From assembly GCF_002752635.1 (NCBI RefSeq), contig NZ_AYTW01000010.1, forward strand, positions 1 to 48,273: DNA of 48,273 bases, read 5' to 3'. The first letter of the stretch is position 1. Each line of letters begins with the position of its first letter. The DNA comes from Mesotoga sp. Brook.08.105.5.1 (lineage in GTDB: Bacteria; Thermotogota; Thermotogae; Petrotogales; Kosmotogaceae). A program made the position numbers and the translations under genes. Under the pieces are notes generated by a model. The model made no database searches, was not told where the DNA came from, and was given only the letters and a program-made list of their open reading frames with translations. This document shows positions 33,005 to 42,480 of this stretch, piece after piece.

Positions 33005-34324
33005 ATGAGGTTGCCTACCTTCAGAGGAGGGGTGCACCCGCCAGAGAAAAAAGAACTTTCCCAAGATTGTCAGCTAAGTGTTCTACCGCCTCCTGAAAGG
33101 GTTTATGTTTTTCTTGCTAATCACGCCGGAGTCCCAGCAAAGCCTGTTGTAAGTATTGGAGACAGAGTCAGAACCGGCCAGCTAATTGCCGAAGCTGGCG
33201 GCTTCATTTCTGCAAATCTCCATTCTCCTCTAACAGGCGAGGTTAAAGAGATTGCCAAGTATTATCATCCCACTCTTGCAAAACCTGACGATGCGATTGT
33301 CATAGATAGGACCGGAGAAGATGAGTGGGACCTGCTTCAGCCAGCAAAACCATTCGATCAGTTTTTACCCGAAGAGATCGTGCAAAGGGTTAAGTCTGCA
33401 GGTATTGTTGGGCTCGGCGGCGCAATGTTTCCGACCAGCGTCAAACTGTCCCCTCCGAAGGATAAGAAAATCGATCTCCTTGTCATAAACGGCGCAGAGT
33501 GTGAACCTTACCTTACCATTGATTACAGGTTCATGCTCGAGCGTTCTGAGGGAGTAGTCAGGGGAATCCTCGCTTTGATGCGTGCACTAAACGTTGAAGA
33601 AGCTATCGTTGGAATTGAAGACAATAAGCCAAAGGCGATAGAGAAGATGAAAGAGGCGGTCCGGTCAACTTCGATACAGGTGAAGACTCTAAGAACAAAA
33701 TACCCACAGGGAGCCGAAAAGCAGTTAATATTCGCGCTGACGAAAAGAAAGGTTCCTTCAGGCGGGCTTCCCCTAGATGTAGGGGTTGTAGTCGATAATA
33801 TTGGAACTGCATTCTCTGTCTATGAGGCAGTCGAACTTGGCCGCCCTCTTGTCGAAAGAGGCGTGACGATTACGGGTGAAGGAATCAAGAAACCCGTAAA
33901 CGTGGTCTCGAGAATCGGGATAATGGCGGATGAGTTGATCAGATATGCTGGAGGCGCGCAGGAATCAGTGGAAAGAGCCGTCTTCGGTGGTCCTATGATG
34001 GGAATGACGGTTCCTAAGACTGATGTACCTACGGTCAAAGGCACTTCCGGGATAACCCTGCTTCTCAGGAGCAAACCAACAGAAGAGTTTCCATGCATAA
34101 GATGCGGGAAATGCACTTCTGTTTGTCCGATGAACCTCCAACCCTTTCTCCTCAATCTCTACGGCACAAACAGATTGTACGACATTCAGGTGGAGAACGG
34201 CCTGCTAGATTGCATTGAGTGCGGTAGCTGTTCCTACGCCTGTCCTGCAAAGATCGATCTAGTCAAGAACTTCAAACTGCATAAGAAGGTCTACAGAAGT
34301 TTGAAGGGAGGTGCGAAGAAGTGA
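33005..34324 (+). CDS. rnfC: Rnf electron transport complex subunit C
   Basis: A 439-residue peripheral subunit of the ferredoxin:NAD+ oxidoreductase that couples electron flow to Na+ or H+ export. It starts LPTFRGGVHPPEKKELS, has the flavin/NADH-type Rossmann region with GLGGAMFPTSVKL (about 138-150) and NGAECEPYLTIDYRFM (about 162-177), and two [4Fe-4S] motifs: CIRCGKCTSVCP (about 364-375) and CIECGSCSYACP (about 403-414). SD GAGAGGTGA. First gene of a six-gene rnf cluster; the C-D-G-E-A-B order is the one seen in Thermotogota and Clostridia. Confidence 0.97.
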   Translation: MRLPTFRGGVHPPEKKELSQDCQLSVLPPPERVYVFLANHAGVPAKPVVSIGDRVRTGQLIAEAGGFISANLHSPLTGEVKEIAKYYHPTLAKPDDAIVIDRTGEDEWDLLQPAKPFDQFLPEEIVQRVKSAGIVGLGGAMFPTSVKLSPPKDKKIDLLVINGAECEPYLTIDYRFMLERSEGVVRGILALMRALNVEEAIVGIEDNKPKAIEKMKEAVRSTSIQVKTLRTKYPQGAEKQLIFALTKRKVPSGGLPLDVGVVVDNIGTAFSVYEAVELGRPLVERGVTITGEGIKKPVNVVSRIGIMADELIRYAGGAQESVERAVFGGPMMGMTVPKTDVPTVKGTSGITLLLRSKPTEEFPCIRCGKCTSVCPMNLQPFLLNLYGTNRLYDIQVENGLLDCIECGSCSYACPAKIDLVKNFKLHKKVYRSLKGGAKK

Positions 34325-35271
34325 AGCTCTCAATGATGGCAGCACCTCATCTAAGATCAGAAGACAGCGTTCGTAAGATAATGCTGGACGTTTTGATAGC
34401 GCTTTCTCCGGCCGCAGTTTGGGCAGTCGTTTCGTTCGGATTGAAGGCCCTCGCTCTTATCCTTGTGTGTACGTTAGGCGCAGAAGCTCTTGAATTCTTC
34501 GTGGTGAGATTCGTAAGACAGAAAAAGAGCTTCAGACCCGATCTTAGCGGTTCCGTCACGGGATTGTTGCTTGCACTGAACCTTTCAGTATCTGTCGAGT
34601 GGTGGCAGGCGCTGATAGGTGTCTTTGTTGCAATAGTAATCGCGAAGGCAGTATTTGGGGGTCTCGGAAAGAACTTCTTCAATCCCGCACTGGTCGGAAG
34701 GGTCTTTCTTCTTATCTCGTTCCCCGTTCAGATGACAACATGGTTCAATCCGTTCGATATGCAGACCACCGCCACTCCGATGGCTATTCTTAAGCAGGGA
34801 GCACCAAGAGTTTTCTCATTGCAGGAGATGTTCCTTGGCACTATCCCCGGCTCTATAGGGGAGGTTAGCGCGCTGCTGCTTCTATTGGGCTTTGGCTGGT
34901 TGTTGTTAAGAAAGAGAGTGGCACCGTTTATCCCCATTGCCTACGTCGGAACGGTTGCGATAATGGCCTCGATATTCTATGCGGTGAATCCGGGCTTTGG
35001 TTCGCCTCTTTATCACATCTTTGGCGGCGGTCTCATGCTTGGAGCTCTGTTTATGGCAACAGATATGGTGACTAGCCCGATGTCTATCAAAGGGCACATT
35101 ATCTTCGGAATAGGTTGTGGAGCTGTGACTATGATCATCAGGTTATTCGGAGGTTATCCGGAAGGTGTCTCATTCGCAATTCTGGTGATGAATGCCTTCG
35201 TGCCTCTAATAGATATGGGGACCAAGCCCAAGATATTTGGAAAGCCAAAGAAGGTGAAGAGCAATGCGTGA
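34321..35271 (+). CDS. rnfD: Rnf complex subunit D
   Basis: A 316-residue membrane subunit with about nine or ten hydrophobic helices. The covalent FMN site is expected on Thr in FDMQTTATPMAI (about 147-158; family pattern T-x-A-T). FFNPALVGRVFLL (about 119-131), and a late GAVTMIIRLFGGYPEGVSFA block, are standard. Start GTG 34321 overlaps the rnfC stop (GTGA) with GGAGGTG upstream. Forms the inner, ion-moving part with RnfG, E and A. Confidence 0.96.
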   Translation: MKLSMMAAPHLRSEDSVRKIMLDVLIALSPAAVWAVVSFGLKALALILVCTLGAEALEFFVVRFVRQKKSFRPDLSGSVTGLLLALNLSVSVEWWQALIGVFVAIVIAKAVFGGLGKNFFNPALVGRVFLLISFPVQMTTWFNPFDMQTTATPMAILKQGAPRVFSLQEMFLGTIPGSIGEVSALLLLLGFGWLLLRKRVAPFIPIAYVGTVAIMASIFYAVNPGFGSPLYHIFGGGLMLGALFMATDMVTSPMSIKGHIIFGIGCGAVTMIIRLFGGYPEGVSFAILVMNAFVPLIDMGTKPKIFGKPKKVKSNA

Positions 35272-35986
35272 ATACTTGAAGACGGGCATTACTCTGATGG
35301 TAATTACTATTATCGCCGCACTGGTTCTTTCGGTAGTTTATACTGTCGTTAAGGAGCCCATCGCCAATGCGGAATTAGGCGCAAAACTAAAGGCTATCCG
35401 AGAAGTCCTTACAGATGCGGAGACTGGAGAGTTGCTTATAGCAGCAGAAAACATCCCTGAGACTGCCAGCGAACTGGCGGAGTTTGAATGGTTTCCCGCC
35501 GGATTCGACTCATCGGAAGGCATAATCTATACGGCAACAAGTTCACAGGGAAAGGTTGAAAGTCCTGCATACAAGTTTGTCAAGGAAGACGGCAGCGAAA
35601 TATACGTAGCAATAGGAATCGCGGTCGGTTATGGCGGAGATGTAAAGACGATGGCTGCCTTCGTCAGTGGACCAAACGGAGTTAGCCTTAACGCAATAAA
35701 AGTTCTCGAGTACTCGCAAGAGACCCCAGGACTTGGAGCCAATATTGCTAACGATGTCGTCCAGCAGAGGTTCTTCCCTATAGCTAGTAAGGGCCTTGAC
35801 AAGGGCGTAAGGGTTGACAAAGACGCAGGAGTGACTCCCTCAGGAGATCAGATAGAGATTAGAAAGCAAGAAGACGGAATAGTCACAGTAAGTGACGTGA
35901 TGACTGGAGCGACGATAACTCCAAGAGCCGTCGCATTCTCACTAAATGCTATATCCGAGTTCTTGGAAAAGGCAGGTGTTCGATAA
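35264..35986 (+). CDS. rnfG: Rnf complex subunit G
   Basis: A 240-residue subunit with one N-terminal transmembrane helix (about 9-29) and an extracytoplasmic FMN domain. The covalent FMN attachment motif is DVMTGATITPRAV (about 208-220), S/T-G-A-T-x-T. The GYGGDVKTMAAF and QETPGLGANI blocks are as expected. Overlaps rnfD by eight bases and joins rnfE as TAATG. Confidence 0.96.
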   Translation: MREYLKTGITLMVITIIAALVLSVVYTVVKEPIANAELGAKLKAIREVLTDAETGELLIAAENIPETASELAEFEWFPAGFDSSEGIIYTATSSQGKVESPAYKFVKEDGSEIYVAIGIAVGYGGDVKTMAAFVSGPNGVSLNAIKVLEYSQETPGLGANIANDVVQQRFFPIASKGLDKGVRVDKDAGVTPSGDQIEIRKQEDGIVTVSDVMTGATITPRAVAFSLNAISEFLEKAGVR

Positions 35987-36597
35987 TGGCTGAATCTAAG
36001 TTCAAAGTCCTCACAAACGGAATCTTCAAGCAGAATCCGATTTTCATTCAGGTTCTGGGAATGTGTCCGACTCTAGCCACTACGACTAGCGCTGAGAATG
36101 GTCTTGGCATGGGGCTAGCAACGACTGCCGTTCTAGCAATGTCGAACATTACGATCTCTCTCGTAAGGAAGTTCATTCCGGACAAGATCAGAATCCCTTC
36201 GTACATTGTGATAATTGCTTCCTTTGTAACTATGATCGATATGCTGATGCATGGTTTCATCTATGATCTCTGGAAGACTCTGGGATTGTTCATCCCTCTG
36301 ATTGTGGTGAACTGTATCATTCTCGGTAGAGCAGAGGCCTTTGCTTCAAAGAACGGTGTCTTCAGATCCTTCCTGGATGGGCTCGGAATGGGACTTGGTT
36401 TTACCGCCTCTCTGGTCTTGCTGGGCTCAGTAAGAGAGTTTCTCGGTAATGGCTCAATCTTCAACTACCACCTTTCGGATGTGAAGATGTTTGCCATGAT
36501 ACTCCCTCCAGGTGCATTCATTGCTCTGGGAATGCTTGCCGCATTCTTCAACTACCTTGGAATAAGGCGTAGCAAACCTAAGAAGGCAGCAAAATGA
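35986..36597 (+). CDS. rnfE: Rnf complex subunit E
   Basis: A 203-residue integral membrane subunit, six predicted helices. Family features: NPIFIQVLGMCPTLATTTSA (about 17-36, with the Cys that helps bind the intramembrane cluster), VNCIILGRAEAFAS (about 109-122) and FLDGLGMGLGFT (about 128-139). Together with RnfA it forms the inverted-topology pair that carries electrons across the membrane. Confidence 0.96.
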   Translation: MAESKFKVLTNGIFKQNPIFIQVLGMCPTLATTTSAENGLGMGLATTAVLAMSNITISLVRKFIPDKIRIPSYIVIIASFVTMIDMLMHGFIYDLWKTLGLFIPLIVVNCIILGRAEAFASKNGVFRSFLDGLGMGLGFTASLVLLGSVREFLGNGSIFNYHLSDVKMFAMILPPGAFIALGMLAAFFNYLGIRRSKPKKAAK

Positions 36598-36610
36598 GGA
36601 GGGTTGACTG

Positions 36611-37192
36611 ATGGCTACCAGATTGGTTTTCATATTTCTTTCAGCAATTCTAATAAACAACTTCGTTCTATCTAGATTTCTAGGAATATGTCCGTTCCTC
36701 GGTGTTTCGAAGAAGACAGATACAGCTGTTGGAATGAGCATAGCCGTTACATTTGTAATGATCATGGCTTCAATAATCACATGGCTCTTGAACATCGCGC
36801 TTGACGCGCTGGGTATTCCTTTTCTTAGAACAATAGTATTCATCCTGATTATTGCAACACTGGTGCAGTTTGTAGAAATCTTCCTGAAGAAGGCCAGTCC
36901 GTCACTTTATGATGCGCTGGGGATATTTCTTCCCCTAATAACTACTAATTGCGCAATTCTCGGTCTGGCGCTTCTGAATGTTCAGCAGAACTATACGCTG
37001 CTCGAGACAATAGTTAATGCCGCCGGCGCCGGACTTGGTTTCGCCCTCGCGCTAATTCTTTTCTCAACTATAAGAGAGAGAATGGAGCTCTCCGAAATTC
37101 CGGAGCCCTTCAAGGGCACTGCCATTGCATTGATCACAGCCGGTTTGCTCTCGATGGCCTTCATGGGTTTCCAGGGCCTCGTGAAACTGTGA
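36611..37192 (+). CDS. rnfA: Rnf complex subunit A
   Basis: A 193-residue six-helix membrane subunit homologous to RnfE. It shows NNFVLSRFLGICPFLGVSK (about 16-34) and TTNCAILGLALLN (about 112-124), each with a Cys of the transmembrane Fe-S site, and GFALALILFSTIRERME. SD GGAGG six-nine bases before ATG. Confidence 0.96.
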   Translation: MATRLVFIFLSAILINNFVLSRFLGICPFLGVSKKTDTAVGMSIAVTFVMIMASIITWLLNIALDALGIPFLRTIVFILIIATLVQFVEIFLKKASPSLYDALGIFLPLITTNCAILGLALLNVQQNYTLLETIVNAAGAGLGFALALILFSTIRERMELSEIPEPFKGTAIALITAGLLSMAFMGFQGLVKL

Positions 37193-37202
37193 GGCGGTGT
37201 GT

Positions 37203-37895
37203 ATGACAGTAGTCTATTCAGTTCTGTTTATGGCCATACTTGGCATAGGAGCAGGTGTCTTTCTAGCTTTCGCCTCTGCGAAGTTTGCGGTCAAGAAAGA
37301 TCCCAGAATCACACTCATCGAAGCCTCTTTGCCAGGCGTCAACTGTGGCGCTTGTGGTTTCCCCGGTTGTTCGGCCTTTGCAAAAGCTATCGCCGAAGGC
37401 AAAGCCCCGCTGGATGGATGTATTCCCGGCAAGCGATCCGGCGTACCTGAAAAACTGAAGCTAATCATGGACACGGATGTCGACAAGCTCACTGCTCTCT
37501 TTGAAGAGGCAGAGGAAGATGCGGAAAAGACACTGGAAAAACTGATCGCTGTCTCCGGGAAAGAAGTAAAAGCAGCGCCGCCAAAACCAAAAAGACCGAC
37601 TCAGGAAGAAATCGATAGTTACAAGGGAAAACTGAAAGAGAATTCTAGAGCTGCTGTGGTCTTTGCGATTCTTCCAAACATAAACTGCGGAATCTGCGGA
37701 TCACCCGGTTGTGCTGCCTTTGCCATAAAGGTCGCGAACAAGGAAGAGAACGCAGACAAATGCGTCCCGGGCAAAAGACAGAACGTGCCCGAAAAAGTCG
37801 AGAAGATTATGGCGCTTTCCCAATCAGAGATTCAAAAGATAATTGAAGATACTTCTGGAGAACCGGCCGAGATAAAAAAGAAGTTTGAGTCATGA
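37203..37895 (+). CDS. rnfB: RnfB-like subunit with two tandem 4Fe-4S (PF04060-type) domains and no ferredoxin domain
   Basis: A 230-residue subunit with an N-terminal transmembrane helix (about 4-26). It carries a first Fe-S motif NCGACGFPGC with a later GCIPGK (about 46-76), and a second, NCGICGSPGC with KCVPGK (about 160-191). The linker between them (about 95-150) is charged and Pro/Lys-rich. Canonical RnfB has one such domain and then two ferredoxin-like CxxCxxCxxxCP motifs; none is present here. The gene stops normally and overlaps dxr as ATGA, so truncation by frameshift is not evident. ATG 37203 is preferred to GTG 37197 for SD spacing. Function as electron entry from ferredoxin is by family. 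Confidence 0.88.
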   Translation: MTVVYSVLFMAILGIGAGVFLAFASAKFAVKKDPRITLIEASLPGVNCGACGFPGCSAFAKAIAEGKAPLDGCIPGKRSGVPEKLKLIMDTDVDKLTALFEEAEEDAEKTLEKLIAVSGKEVKAAPPKPKRPTQEEIDSYKGKLKENSRAAVVFAILPNINCGICGSPGCAAFAIKVANKEENADKCVPGKRQNVPEKVEKIMALSQSEIQKIIEDTSGEPAEIKKKFES

Positions 37896-39022
37896 AGAAA
37901 AGGTTGGCTGTTCTTGGTTCTACTGGATCTATAGGTTCACAGACACTCGAAATAGTAGATAAGATTGAAGAAATCGAAATTGTGGCCATTTCCTGTGGCC
38001 ACAATTTCGTCTCTTTTTCTAAACAGCTTTCAGAATTTCATCCCAAGTTCGCCGCCACTCTTGAAAAAAAAGAGGATCTAGTCGATTCCTTTCCGGAAAC
38101 AACCTTTTTCCAAGGCGAAGAGGGGATAGAAACGATGCTCGAAAAGTCCCGCCCGGATTATGTGATGCTTGCGGTCAGCGGAGCGGCCGGACTGAGATTC
38201 AGCCTTAAGGCGGCTGAAGTCTGCAGCAGACTATGTCTTGCGAACAAAGAGTCTATCGTTTGTGGAGGTAATCTTCTTCCGGACAGATGTGCCGACAGAG
38301 GGGTAGAGCTTATCCCGGTCGACTCAGAGCACAGCGGCCTCTTTCAGCTTCTTGACGGTACTGTTCGCCCTGAGAGAATCTTGATAACCGCATCTGGCGG
38401 CGCCCTGAGGGATTGGCCGAAAGAAAGGATTCACCAAGCAAGCCCTGAAGATGTCATGAAACACCCTGTTTGGTCTATGGGAAACAGGATAACCGTTGAT
38501 AGCGCTTCAATGGTTAACAAGGGACTCGAAGTAATTGAAGCGAAATATCTCTTTGGGTTCGAATCGAGTGAAATTGATACTTATATTTGTAGAAACAGTT
38601 TTGTTCATGCCGGTGTTGTGTACAATGATGGCGTTATGAAACTTCATGTGGGGCGCCCGGACATGCGAATTCCGATTGCATATTCTCTGACTTATCCAGT
38701 GCACCACCATCTTTTCGGAGAAGAGAGGATAGCCGGCATACCAATTGCCCTGGAAGAACTGCAGCAAGAGAGATTTCCCGCTCTGACACTTGCGAGAGAG
38801 ATTTGTGGAACTGTCAGCAAGCAAATCGCTTATAATGCTGCAGATGAGATAGCAGTCGATGCTTTTATGAAGGGTAGGATGCCTTTTGGGAGCATTTACA
38901 ATATAATTGAAAGGACGGTTGCCCGAACAGATGATCTAAATCCGGTCGATTACAGTCAAATTATCGAGATTGACGTTCTGGCAAGAAGATTGGCTCAAGA
39001 AGAGGTGAATAGATGTTATTAG
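37892..39022 (+). CDS. dxr: 1-deoxy-D-xylulose 5-phosphate reductoisomerase
   Basis: A 376-residue enzyme of the MEP isoprenoid pathway that makes 2-C-methyl-D-erythritol 4-phosphate with NADPH. Seen: VLGSTGSIGSQTL (about 7-19, nucleotide binding), LANKESIVCGG (about 116-126), DSEHSGLFQLL (about 144-154, metal ligands), ITASGGALRDWP (about 165-176) and the flexible HPVWSMGNRITVDSASMVNKGLEVIEA region (about 190-216, in two parts). Start ATG overlaps the rnfB stop. A 14-bp hairpin followed by a T-rich run lies in its first 130 bases (separate entry). Confidence 0.96.
   Translation: MKKRLAVLGSTGSIGSQTLEIVDKIEEIEIVAISCGHNFVSFSKQLSEFHPKFAATLEKKEDLVDSFPETTFFQGEEGIETMLEKSRPDYVMLAVSGAAGLRFSLKAAEVCSRLCLANKESIVCGGNLLPDRCADRGVELIPVDSEHSGLFQLLDGTVRPERILITASGGALRDWPKERIHQASPEDVMKHPVWSMGNRITVDSASMVNKGLEVIEAKYLFGFESSEIDTYICRNSFVHAGVVYNDGVMKLHVGRPDMRIPIAYSLTYPVHHHLFGEERIAGIPIALEELQQERFPALTLAREICGTVSKQIAYNAADEIAVDAFMKGRMPFGSIYNIIERTVARTDDLNPVDYSQIIEIDVLARRLAQEEVNRCY
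37975..38020 (+). promoter_or_regulatory. Terminator-like hairpin inside the 5' coding part of dxr
   Basis: CGAAATTGTGGCCA (37975-37988) and TGGCCACAATTTCG (37996-38009) are perfect 14-bp complements with a 7-base loop, followed by TCTCTTTTTCT (38010-38020). It lies 84 bases into dxr, in codons for EIVAISCGHNFVS. The shape is that of an intrinsic terminator or attenuator. Whether it acts is unknown; it would set rnf expression above dxr-rseP-ispG. Confidence 0.6.
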
Positions 39023-40524: not shown

Positions 40525-41564
40525 GTAGAACCGTAAGAGTTGGGAATGTCTTGGTCGGTGGCGGAAATCCGGTTTCGGTTCAGTCAATGACAAATACCAA
40601 GACAATCGACATTCCTGCAACTCTCGAGCAGATCGATAGGCTTACAGATGCCGGGTGTGATCTTGTAAGAGTCTCCGTTCCGGATTTTGAGTCAGCACAG
40701 GCCATCAAAGAGATTTGCTCATCAAGCAAAATCCCTGTAATTGCAGATATTCATTTTGATTACAGACTCGCAGTTGAGTCCATAAAGAACGGTGCAGCAA
40801 AGGTAAGGATAAATCCGGGAAATATCGGTCAGGAATGGAAGGTCCGGGAGACAGTGAAGGTTGCTAAAGAATTCGGTGTTCCAATAAGAGTTGGCGCAAA
40901 CTCTGGCTCTCTCGACCGAAGTTTTGGTTCGTACGACAAACCCACCGCTCTTGCAGAGAGCGCTCTTGCGCAAGTAAGAATACTTGAGAGTGCAGGGTTC
41001 GAGGACATTGTGATTTCTCTTAAGTCTTCATCGGTATCAGAGACTGTGAGTGCAAATGAATACCTGTTCGAGAAGACCGATTATCCGTTTCACCTTGGAG
41101 TTACAGAGGCAGGTTTCGGGCTTGATTCAACCGTAAAGTCTTCTATTGGTATTGGCACACTCTTGCTGAAAGGCATTGGAGACACCATAAGAGTATCGAT
41201 GTCGGGAGACCCCGTTCAGGAGATCGAAGTAGGCTTGAGCATTCTTCGTTCACTTGGGCTAAGAAAGGGAGTTGACGTGATTTCCTGTCCGACGTGCGCA
41301 AGAGCCGAAATAGATGTTGAGTCTCTTGCAAGGAAAGTGAAGAGTTGGGTAGGGAATATCGAGGATGACATTTCTGTAGCCGTTATGGGATGCGTTGTAA
41401 ACGGAATTGGGGAAGGAAAAGATGCGGACATTGGGATCGCCGGCACTGCATCCGGCGGAGTCATTTTTCTCAAGGGAGAGATAGTCGAGAAGGTGGAGAA
41501 GCGGAACCTTGAATCACGATTCCGACATTGGTTTGATGAACTCCTGTCGGGAGGTGATAGATGA
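40515..41564 (+). CDS. ispG: 4-hydroxy-3-methylbut-2-enyl-diphosphate synthase
   Basis: A 349-residue MEP-pathway enzyme with a [4Fe-4S] cluster; it uses reduced ferredoxin or flavodoxin. N-terminal TIM barrel: [15 protein letters not shown] (about 13-27), [10 protein letters not shown] (about 74-83), [10 protein letters not shown] (about 95-104). Cluster ligands: CPTCAR (about 255-260) and [11 protein letters not shown] (about 292-302) with its downstream Glu. The start is ATG 40515 or ATG 40521; the latter overlaps the rseP stop as ATGA, and neither has a strong SD. It stands directly after a Rnf complex that governs the ferredoxin pool. Confidence 0.95.
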
Positions 41565-42480
41565 AAGTCTCGATAATCGGAGCCGGAATGGTAGGTTCGT
41601 CAATTGCGTATGCAACAATGATAAAGGGAATTGCAAGAGAGATAGCGCTTGTTGATGTAAATACAGAACTTGCAGTGGGTCAGGCTATGGACCTGAGTCA
41701 TGGAAATGTGTATGTGAGACCGGTGAAGATATCCGGTGGAAGTTACAATGTGTCGGCAGATTCCGATGTTGTTGTTATTACCGCCGGAAGGCCACAGAAA
41801 GAAGGGGAGAGTCGTCTCCAGCTTTTAAAGAACAACGCAAAAATGGTTGAGAGAGCAGTCGATGAGTACTTTCATTCAGCAAAGAGCCGATTATTTTGGT
41901 CGTCTCGAATCCGGTAGACATACTCGCATGAGTTGCCTGGAGGACATCTGGCTTTCACAGGAGCAAAGTCATCGGTTCCGGTACTACCTTGGACACGGCA
42001 AGACTAAGACAGAGCATAGCCGACCACTGTGGACTTGACCCAAGAAACGTTCACGCATATGTTATTGGTGAACACGGTGATAGTGAGATCGTTAACTGGA
42101 CGAATGTCGACATCGCAGGTATTCCGATAAAGGAGTTCTGCGGGAACTGCGAAGACGTTTTGTTTGAAAAACTGTTTGAAGAGACACGAAGCGCTGCTTA
42201 TCGTGTTATTGAAAAGAAGGGTTCAACATACTACGGAATAGGGCTTGCTGTATCAAAGGTGCTTTCCACTATTCCGAACGATCAACACTCAGTCCTTACA
42301 GTCTCATCTGTACACAGGGAATTTGAAGGTATGCAGGATGTGCCTTTCAGCGTTCCCAGTATTCTAGGGAGAAGTGGAGTAGAAAGAATACTGCATGTTG
42401 GACTTTCAGAAGAGGAAATTCAGGGACTTTCGAAATCAACAGGCGTTATCACCGATGCAATAGAAAGCCTAAAGGGATAA
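41561..42480 (+). pseudogene. ldh: L-lactate/malate dehydrogenase, broken by a frameshift and a nonsense codon
   Basis: The first part (41561-about 41890) encodes [25 protein letters not shown] and VVITAGRPQKEGESR, a normal NAD-dependent LDH/MDH N-terminus. Near 41889-41891 the frame is lost: shifting by one base restores LVVSNPVDIL (from 41897), so one base seems missing. In the restored frame GCA-TGA at 41926-41931 puts a stop where family members have Trp (L-A-W-V-A-W). After that, RSKVIGSGTTLDTARLRQ and the catalytic VIGEHGDSEIVNW follow to TAA 42480. All catalytic residues remain, so decay is recent. Apart from the lesions the length (about 306) is normal. The ATG overlaps ispG. Confidence 0.9.

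Follow-up and report, generated by a model that had tools for sequence, protein, structure and literature searches.

RnfB is the most variable subunit of the Rnf complex. The A. woodii and C. tetanomorphum proteins (9eri, 7zc6) comprise a membrane helix, a shuttle domain (B8 or FdI domain) and, at the C-terminus, a polyferredoxin (FdII/III) with five to seven clusters. The C-terminal part of such long RnfBs binds RnfC (PMC9588780). In A. woodii, both growth and activity require the FdI (B8) cluster, which shifts towards RnfA/E upon reduction (PMC11889175). Vitt et al. (2022, PMC9588780) further likened FdI to the [4Fe-4S] domain at the N-terminus of corrinoid/iron-sulfur protein (CFeSP). T. 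maritima RnfB is much shorter (10.56 kDa), and a single [4Fe-4S] centre is predicted for it. Once purified, the T. maritima complex oxidises ferredoxin from C. pasteurianum and pumps Na+; its true cluster number was left to be established (Kuhns et al. 2020, PMC7414866). According to Vitt et al. (2022, PMC9588780), FdI is all that this shortened RnfB comprises.

We analyzed a 48,273-nucleotide stretch of Mesotoga DNA (the window) carrying a complete rnf operon in the order rnfCDGEAB, with rnfB as the final gene (Table 1). The products of rnfC, D, G, E and A (33005-37192) all exceed their own TIGRFAM cut-offs (5 of 5), and the rnfB product is assigned to RnfB by a TIGR01944 score above the curated cut-off of 68.7 bits. 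In agreement with the original prediction of an intact gene that ends in a normal overlap with dxr, the rnfB reading frame is uninterrupted from the ATG at 37203 (alternative in-frame GTG at 37197) to the TGA at 37893-37895 and shares an ATGA-type overlap with the dxr start codon at 37892. All expected cofactor motifs are present in the other subunits and the complex looks functional. Known here from its genes, the host Rnf is by all signs a complete, ordinary Na+-type complex of the short Thermotogota kind.

Table 1. Coordinates of the rnf genes and of the RnfB segments in the window.
Feature	Position	Strand	Characteristics and evidence
rnfC	33005..34324	+	NADH-binding subunit; TIGR01945 555.8 bits; two [4Fe-4S] motifs from C364 and C403
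rnfD	34321..35271	+	TIGR01946; flavin-attachment-type motif TTATPM at residue 149
rnfG	35264..35986	+	TIGR01947; flavin-attachment-type motif TGATIT at residue 214
rnfE	35986..36597	+	TIGR01948; Cys27 and Cys110 may ligate the intramembrane [2Fe-2S] cluster
rnfA	36611..37192	+	TIGR01943; Cys27 and Cys114 may ligate the [2Fe-2S] cluster shared with RnfE
rnfB	37203..37895	+	230 aa with two FdI copies in tandem and without ferredoxin-type clusters; TIGR01944 112.5 bits
N-terminal membrane helix, residues 2-28	37206..37286	+	AlphaFold2 helix; aligns with RnfB of 7zc6, 9eri and 8ahx
FdI-1, residues 34-91, Cys 48/51/56/73	37302..37475	+	PF04060; match to 4c1n, Z 7.4, 1.7 A over 57 residues (VIA-align)
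Helical tail of repeat 1, residues 92-118	37476..37556	+	helices 93-102 and 107-118; resembles tail 2 and Petrotogaceae RnfB tails
Pro/Lys-rich linker and helix between repeats, residues 119-147	37557..37643	+	sequence; helix 134-146
FdI-2, residues 148-205, Cys 162/165/170/187	37644..37817	+	PF04060; pLDDT 93.5 when folded separately; match to 4c1n, Z 7.8, 1.8 A over 57 residues (VIA-align)
Helical tail of repeat 2, residues 206-230	37818..37892	+	helices 207-217 and 221-229; resembles Petrotogaceae RnfB tails (0 of 3000 shuffles reached the score)

Pfam analysis of RnfB returned a single family, PF04060 (FeS), in two stretches (94.2 bits, E 3.6e-27). These cover residues 43-75 (37329-37427, E 1.4e-15) and residues 157-189 (37671-37769, E 2.9e-12), with four cysteines each (C48, C51, C56 and C73; C162, C165, C170 and C187). 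The Fer4 family had no match in RnfB at E<=1 and a motif search found no CxxCxxCxxxC ferredoxin motif. Both the duplication of the Fe-S domain and the absence of the ferredoxin part, as originally predicted, were therefore borne out. The picture of a canonical RnfB with two ferredoxin clusters, against which the protein had been set, needs widening because the C-terminal part of RnfBs holds two to seven clusters (PMC12174285) and T. maritima RnfB has none there (PMC7414866). The single membrane helix followed by a four-cysteine FdI is shared with A. woodii and C. tetanomorphum RnfB, whereas their polyferredoxin is absent here. T. maritima, a member of the same phylum, has the same gene order, the same succession of membrane helix and FdI and likewise no ferredoxin part, but only one FdI where two plus their tails are present here (PMC7414866). 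Petrotogaceae RnfBs (e.g. L046, L044 and L062) also possess an FdI followed by a similar helical tail but in single copy and with a length of about 115-120 aa.

Structure prediction for RnfB (AlphaFold2, 16-sequence alignment) resulted in a mean pLDDT of 87 and a pTM of 0.71. In this model, the helices of repeat 1 (34-42, 56-64, 74-77, 81-90, 93-102 and 107-118) are matched helix-for-helix by those of repeat 2 (148-156, 170-178, 188-191, 195-203, 207-217 and 221-229). Only the CFeSP domain and A. woodii RnfB exceeded Z 5 in structural comparisons, with Z values near 7 being modest, and a Foldseek search of these small domains against the PDB gave no match at E<=0.001. Both copies are confidently predicted to share the fold of the CFeSP N-terminal [4Fe-4S] domain (4c1n, 2ycl), which also has the PF04060-type motif, although CFeSP is a corrinoid methyl-transfer protein that is not membrane-bound. 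In phmmer searches, similarity to the RnfBs of solved complexes was confined to residues 4-94 (E down to 2.4e-15) and thus to copy 1, not copy 2. Because of this similarity and its position after the membrane helix, copy 1 corresponds to the B8/FdI shuttle.

The missing ferredoxin part is a lineage trait already known for T. maritima. A PF04060 protein is encoded in 99 of 103 Thermotogota genomes, and all RnfBs examined from Thermotogota outside the Kosmotogaceae (45 of 45) are FdI-only, with a single FdI and no ferredoxin motif. Comparison across the phylum thus identifies a known layout as far as the missing part is concerned, while the same is untrue of the duplication. The accompanying proposal that electron entry differs is correct relative to long RnfBs but not as a novelty, as the FdI-only Rnf of T. 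maritima already accepts electrons from soluble ferredoxin (PMC7414866). A ferredoxin-domain RnfB encoded elsewhere could be rejected: in the source genome (2.99 Mb, 61 contigs, 100% complete) PF04060 is confined to the rnfB product and a second RnfB is absent. The genome does encode a soluble ferredoxin of the T. maritima type (61 aa, PF13370, 63 bits; locus L162, 1495-1680, minus strand) and several dicluster ferredoxin-type proteins.

Related arrangements were observed in other genomes. Beyond the phylum, FdI-only RnfBs are likewise encoded beside rnf genes in Acholeplasmatales (L081, L079, L085, L098 and L138), a Clostridiales MAG (L080) and a spirochaete MAG (L136). L081 encodes, between rnfA and rnfB (2753-2998), a membrane protein of 81 aa whose soluble part contains cysteine. 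In several Thermotogota (L006, L019, L042, L043, L045 and L050), a permease-like membrane protein of ~240-260 aa ends in a fused PF04060 FeS domain. Two genomes from other genera of the Kosmotogaceae (G020 and G022) encode an additional PF04060 protein of ~540-550 aa, possibly of the [FeFe]-hydrogenase type, which is absent from the source genome.

The double FdI is present in every Kosmotogaceae genome that yielded an RnfB (16 of 16), with protein lengths of 230-236 aa; a Kosmotogaceae MAG (L072, 80% identity) ranks as the nearest named record. All eight cysteines are invariant in these 16 proteins, so that neither chance nor a sequencing artefact accounts for the duplication. One further genome of the same genus (78% complete) gave no RnfB match. 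Outside the family, the duplication is absent from the 45 RnfBs of other Thermotogota, and among the best 80 loci of a genome scan of bacteria and archaea it was seen in only two records, both of the Kosmotogaceae type. For 398 genomes of a Clostridia-containing phylum, none of the matches listed extended over copy 2, and no double FdI was present among the matches listed for 198 genomes of the phylum to which L136 belongs, although rare cases may occur in both sets. Other RnfBs flagged as having multiple FeS motifs contained ferredoxin CxxCGxC motifs instead of a second FdI and were discarded by eye. The tandem FdI is thus a family-fixed variant that we could not find described in open papers, and the openly accessible portions of the Mesotoga and Kosmotoga Rnf literature make no mention of it. 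Copy 2 has invariant residues of its own in the 16 family genomes, for example CAAFA at 170-174, and shows little replacement change (pN 0.14 vs pS 0.74, with silent sites saturated so that no dN/dS is given). Based on these two features, copy 2 is evidently maintained and not decaying.

To trace the origin of the two copies, we relied on a domain tree of 63 domains built from a short alignment of 83 columns. Copy 1 forms one group (90/99), which also includes the long-branch row L054, and copy 2 forms another (99/99). Both copies and the single-domain Petrotogaceae RnfBs, the nearest outgroup, share one grouping (92/99). The two tails are alike (6 of 3000 shuffles reached the score with slides allowed) even with two copy-1 rows out of register, which biases the test against similarity, and in case of the comparison of either tail with the Petrotogaceae RnfB tail no shuffle scored as high (0 of 3000). 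The domain trees and the shared tails together point to a single internal duplication that copied the entire soluble portion, FdI together with its tail, of a short RnfB like that of Petrotogaceae. This event is placed by the sequences in the Kosmotogaceae ancestor, before the family diversified. A derivation of copy 2 from the permease-type FeS proteins of ~240-260 aa was rejected, as these form a distant group (100/100) and copy 2 clusters with RnfB.

With copy 1 as the shuttle and copy 2 maintained, we lean towards an electron relay within a once-duplicated short RnfB, leading from ferredoxin via FdI-2 and FdI-1 to the [2Fe-2S] cluster of RnfA/E. Each FdI copy would bind one [4Fe-4S] cluster, on which cysteine pattern and predicted fold agree. 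Reduced soluble ferredoxin would dock on FdI-2 and donate one electron, which FdI-2 would hand to the membrane-anchored FdI-1. Tethered by its helix, FdI-1 would then swing into the RnfA/E groove and reduce the [2Fe-2S] cluster, as in the Rnf complexes of A. woodii and C. tetanomorphum. FdI-2 would in this way assume the receiving role of FdII/III of long RnfBs in a one-cluster form, and an additional ferredoxin subunit would not be required. An argument against the relay is that one FdI is enough in T. maritima, so that a second one is not obviously needed for reception. The two-FdI RnfB sits between one-cluster and six-to-eight-cluster forms. A two-cluster, all-FdI version of this variable subunit tests how few clusters suffice and can show whether ferredoxin reception and delivery to RnfA/E separate into two copies of one fold.

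After the relay, the explanations rank in decreasing likelihood as two FdIs working in parallel, FdI-2 as a docking module, FdI-2 as near-neutral baggage and an external polyferredoxin. If both FdIs worked in parallel, each would take an electron directly from ferredoxin and each would reach RnfA/E, with RnfB holding two electrons for the two-electron reduction of NAD+. The four cysteines and the same predicted fold in both copies would fit such an arrangement, as would the 29-residue Pro/Lys-rich stretch separating them and the fact that the single T. maritima FdI does both jobs (PMC7414866). However, the copies fall into two distinct tree groups with copy-specific invariants such as CAAFA, and only copy 1 is similar to the FdI of other Rnf complexes, and we regard the parallel arrangement as unlikely. 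A related and more speculative idea is that the tandem FdI acts as a two-electron input, in which RnfB would load two electrons from one-electron ferredoxins, deliver them sequentially to RnfA/E and alter the gating of the Na+ pump relative to every characterised Rnf; we regard this as decidedly improbable.

The contact between RnfC and the C-terminal part of long RnfBs (PMC9588780), which FdI-only RnfBs do without, raises the thought that FdI-2 mainly serves docking or assembly, for example by taking over RnfC binding from the missing FdII/III, with any cluster lying off the electron path. We consider this quite unlikely given that pure docking would not require the four invariant cysteines of FdI-2 and that other Thermotogota assemble Rnf without this domain. 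FdI-only RnfBs are nevertheless common in the phylum and the T. maritima complex works (PMC7414866), so FdI-1 might do everything as it does there and FdI-2 might be tolerated baggage of a near-neutral duplication. Its retention in all RnfB-yielding family genomes with invariant cysteines and few replacement changes renders this very unlikely. The least probable explanation, for which we see hardly any room, is the supply of the missing part by a separately encoded polyferredoxin, a role for which the several dicluster ferredoxin-type proteins of the genome could be candidates. The rnf operon contains no extra ferredoxin gene and such a protein is dispensable in T. maritima (PMC7414866). The earlier suggestion that another protein provides the ferredoxin part was consequently not supported, since FdI-only complexes work alone and soluble ferredoxins are available as donors.

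Two further features of the neighbouring sequence were observed. Beside the ispG homologue in the window, an L-lactate dehydrogenase gene (41561-42480) is broken into two plus-strand open reading frames (41561-41917 and 41989-42480) that differ in frame. The shift lies around 41880, and an in-frame TGA comes shortly after it in the second frame; this may be a real pseudogene or an assembly error. At positions 37975-38009, inside the start of dxr and 80 bases 3' of rnfB, lies a perfect 14-bp inverted repeat followed by TCTCTTTTTC, which occurs once in the genome. Several family members also have the inverted repeat; L035 shows a paired change, but one pair is broken in L028, L033, L034 and L039. 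It also overlies the conserved peptide VAISCGHN, so that it is no more than a possible terminator or operator.
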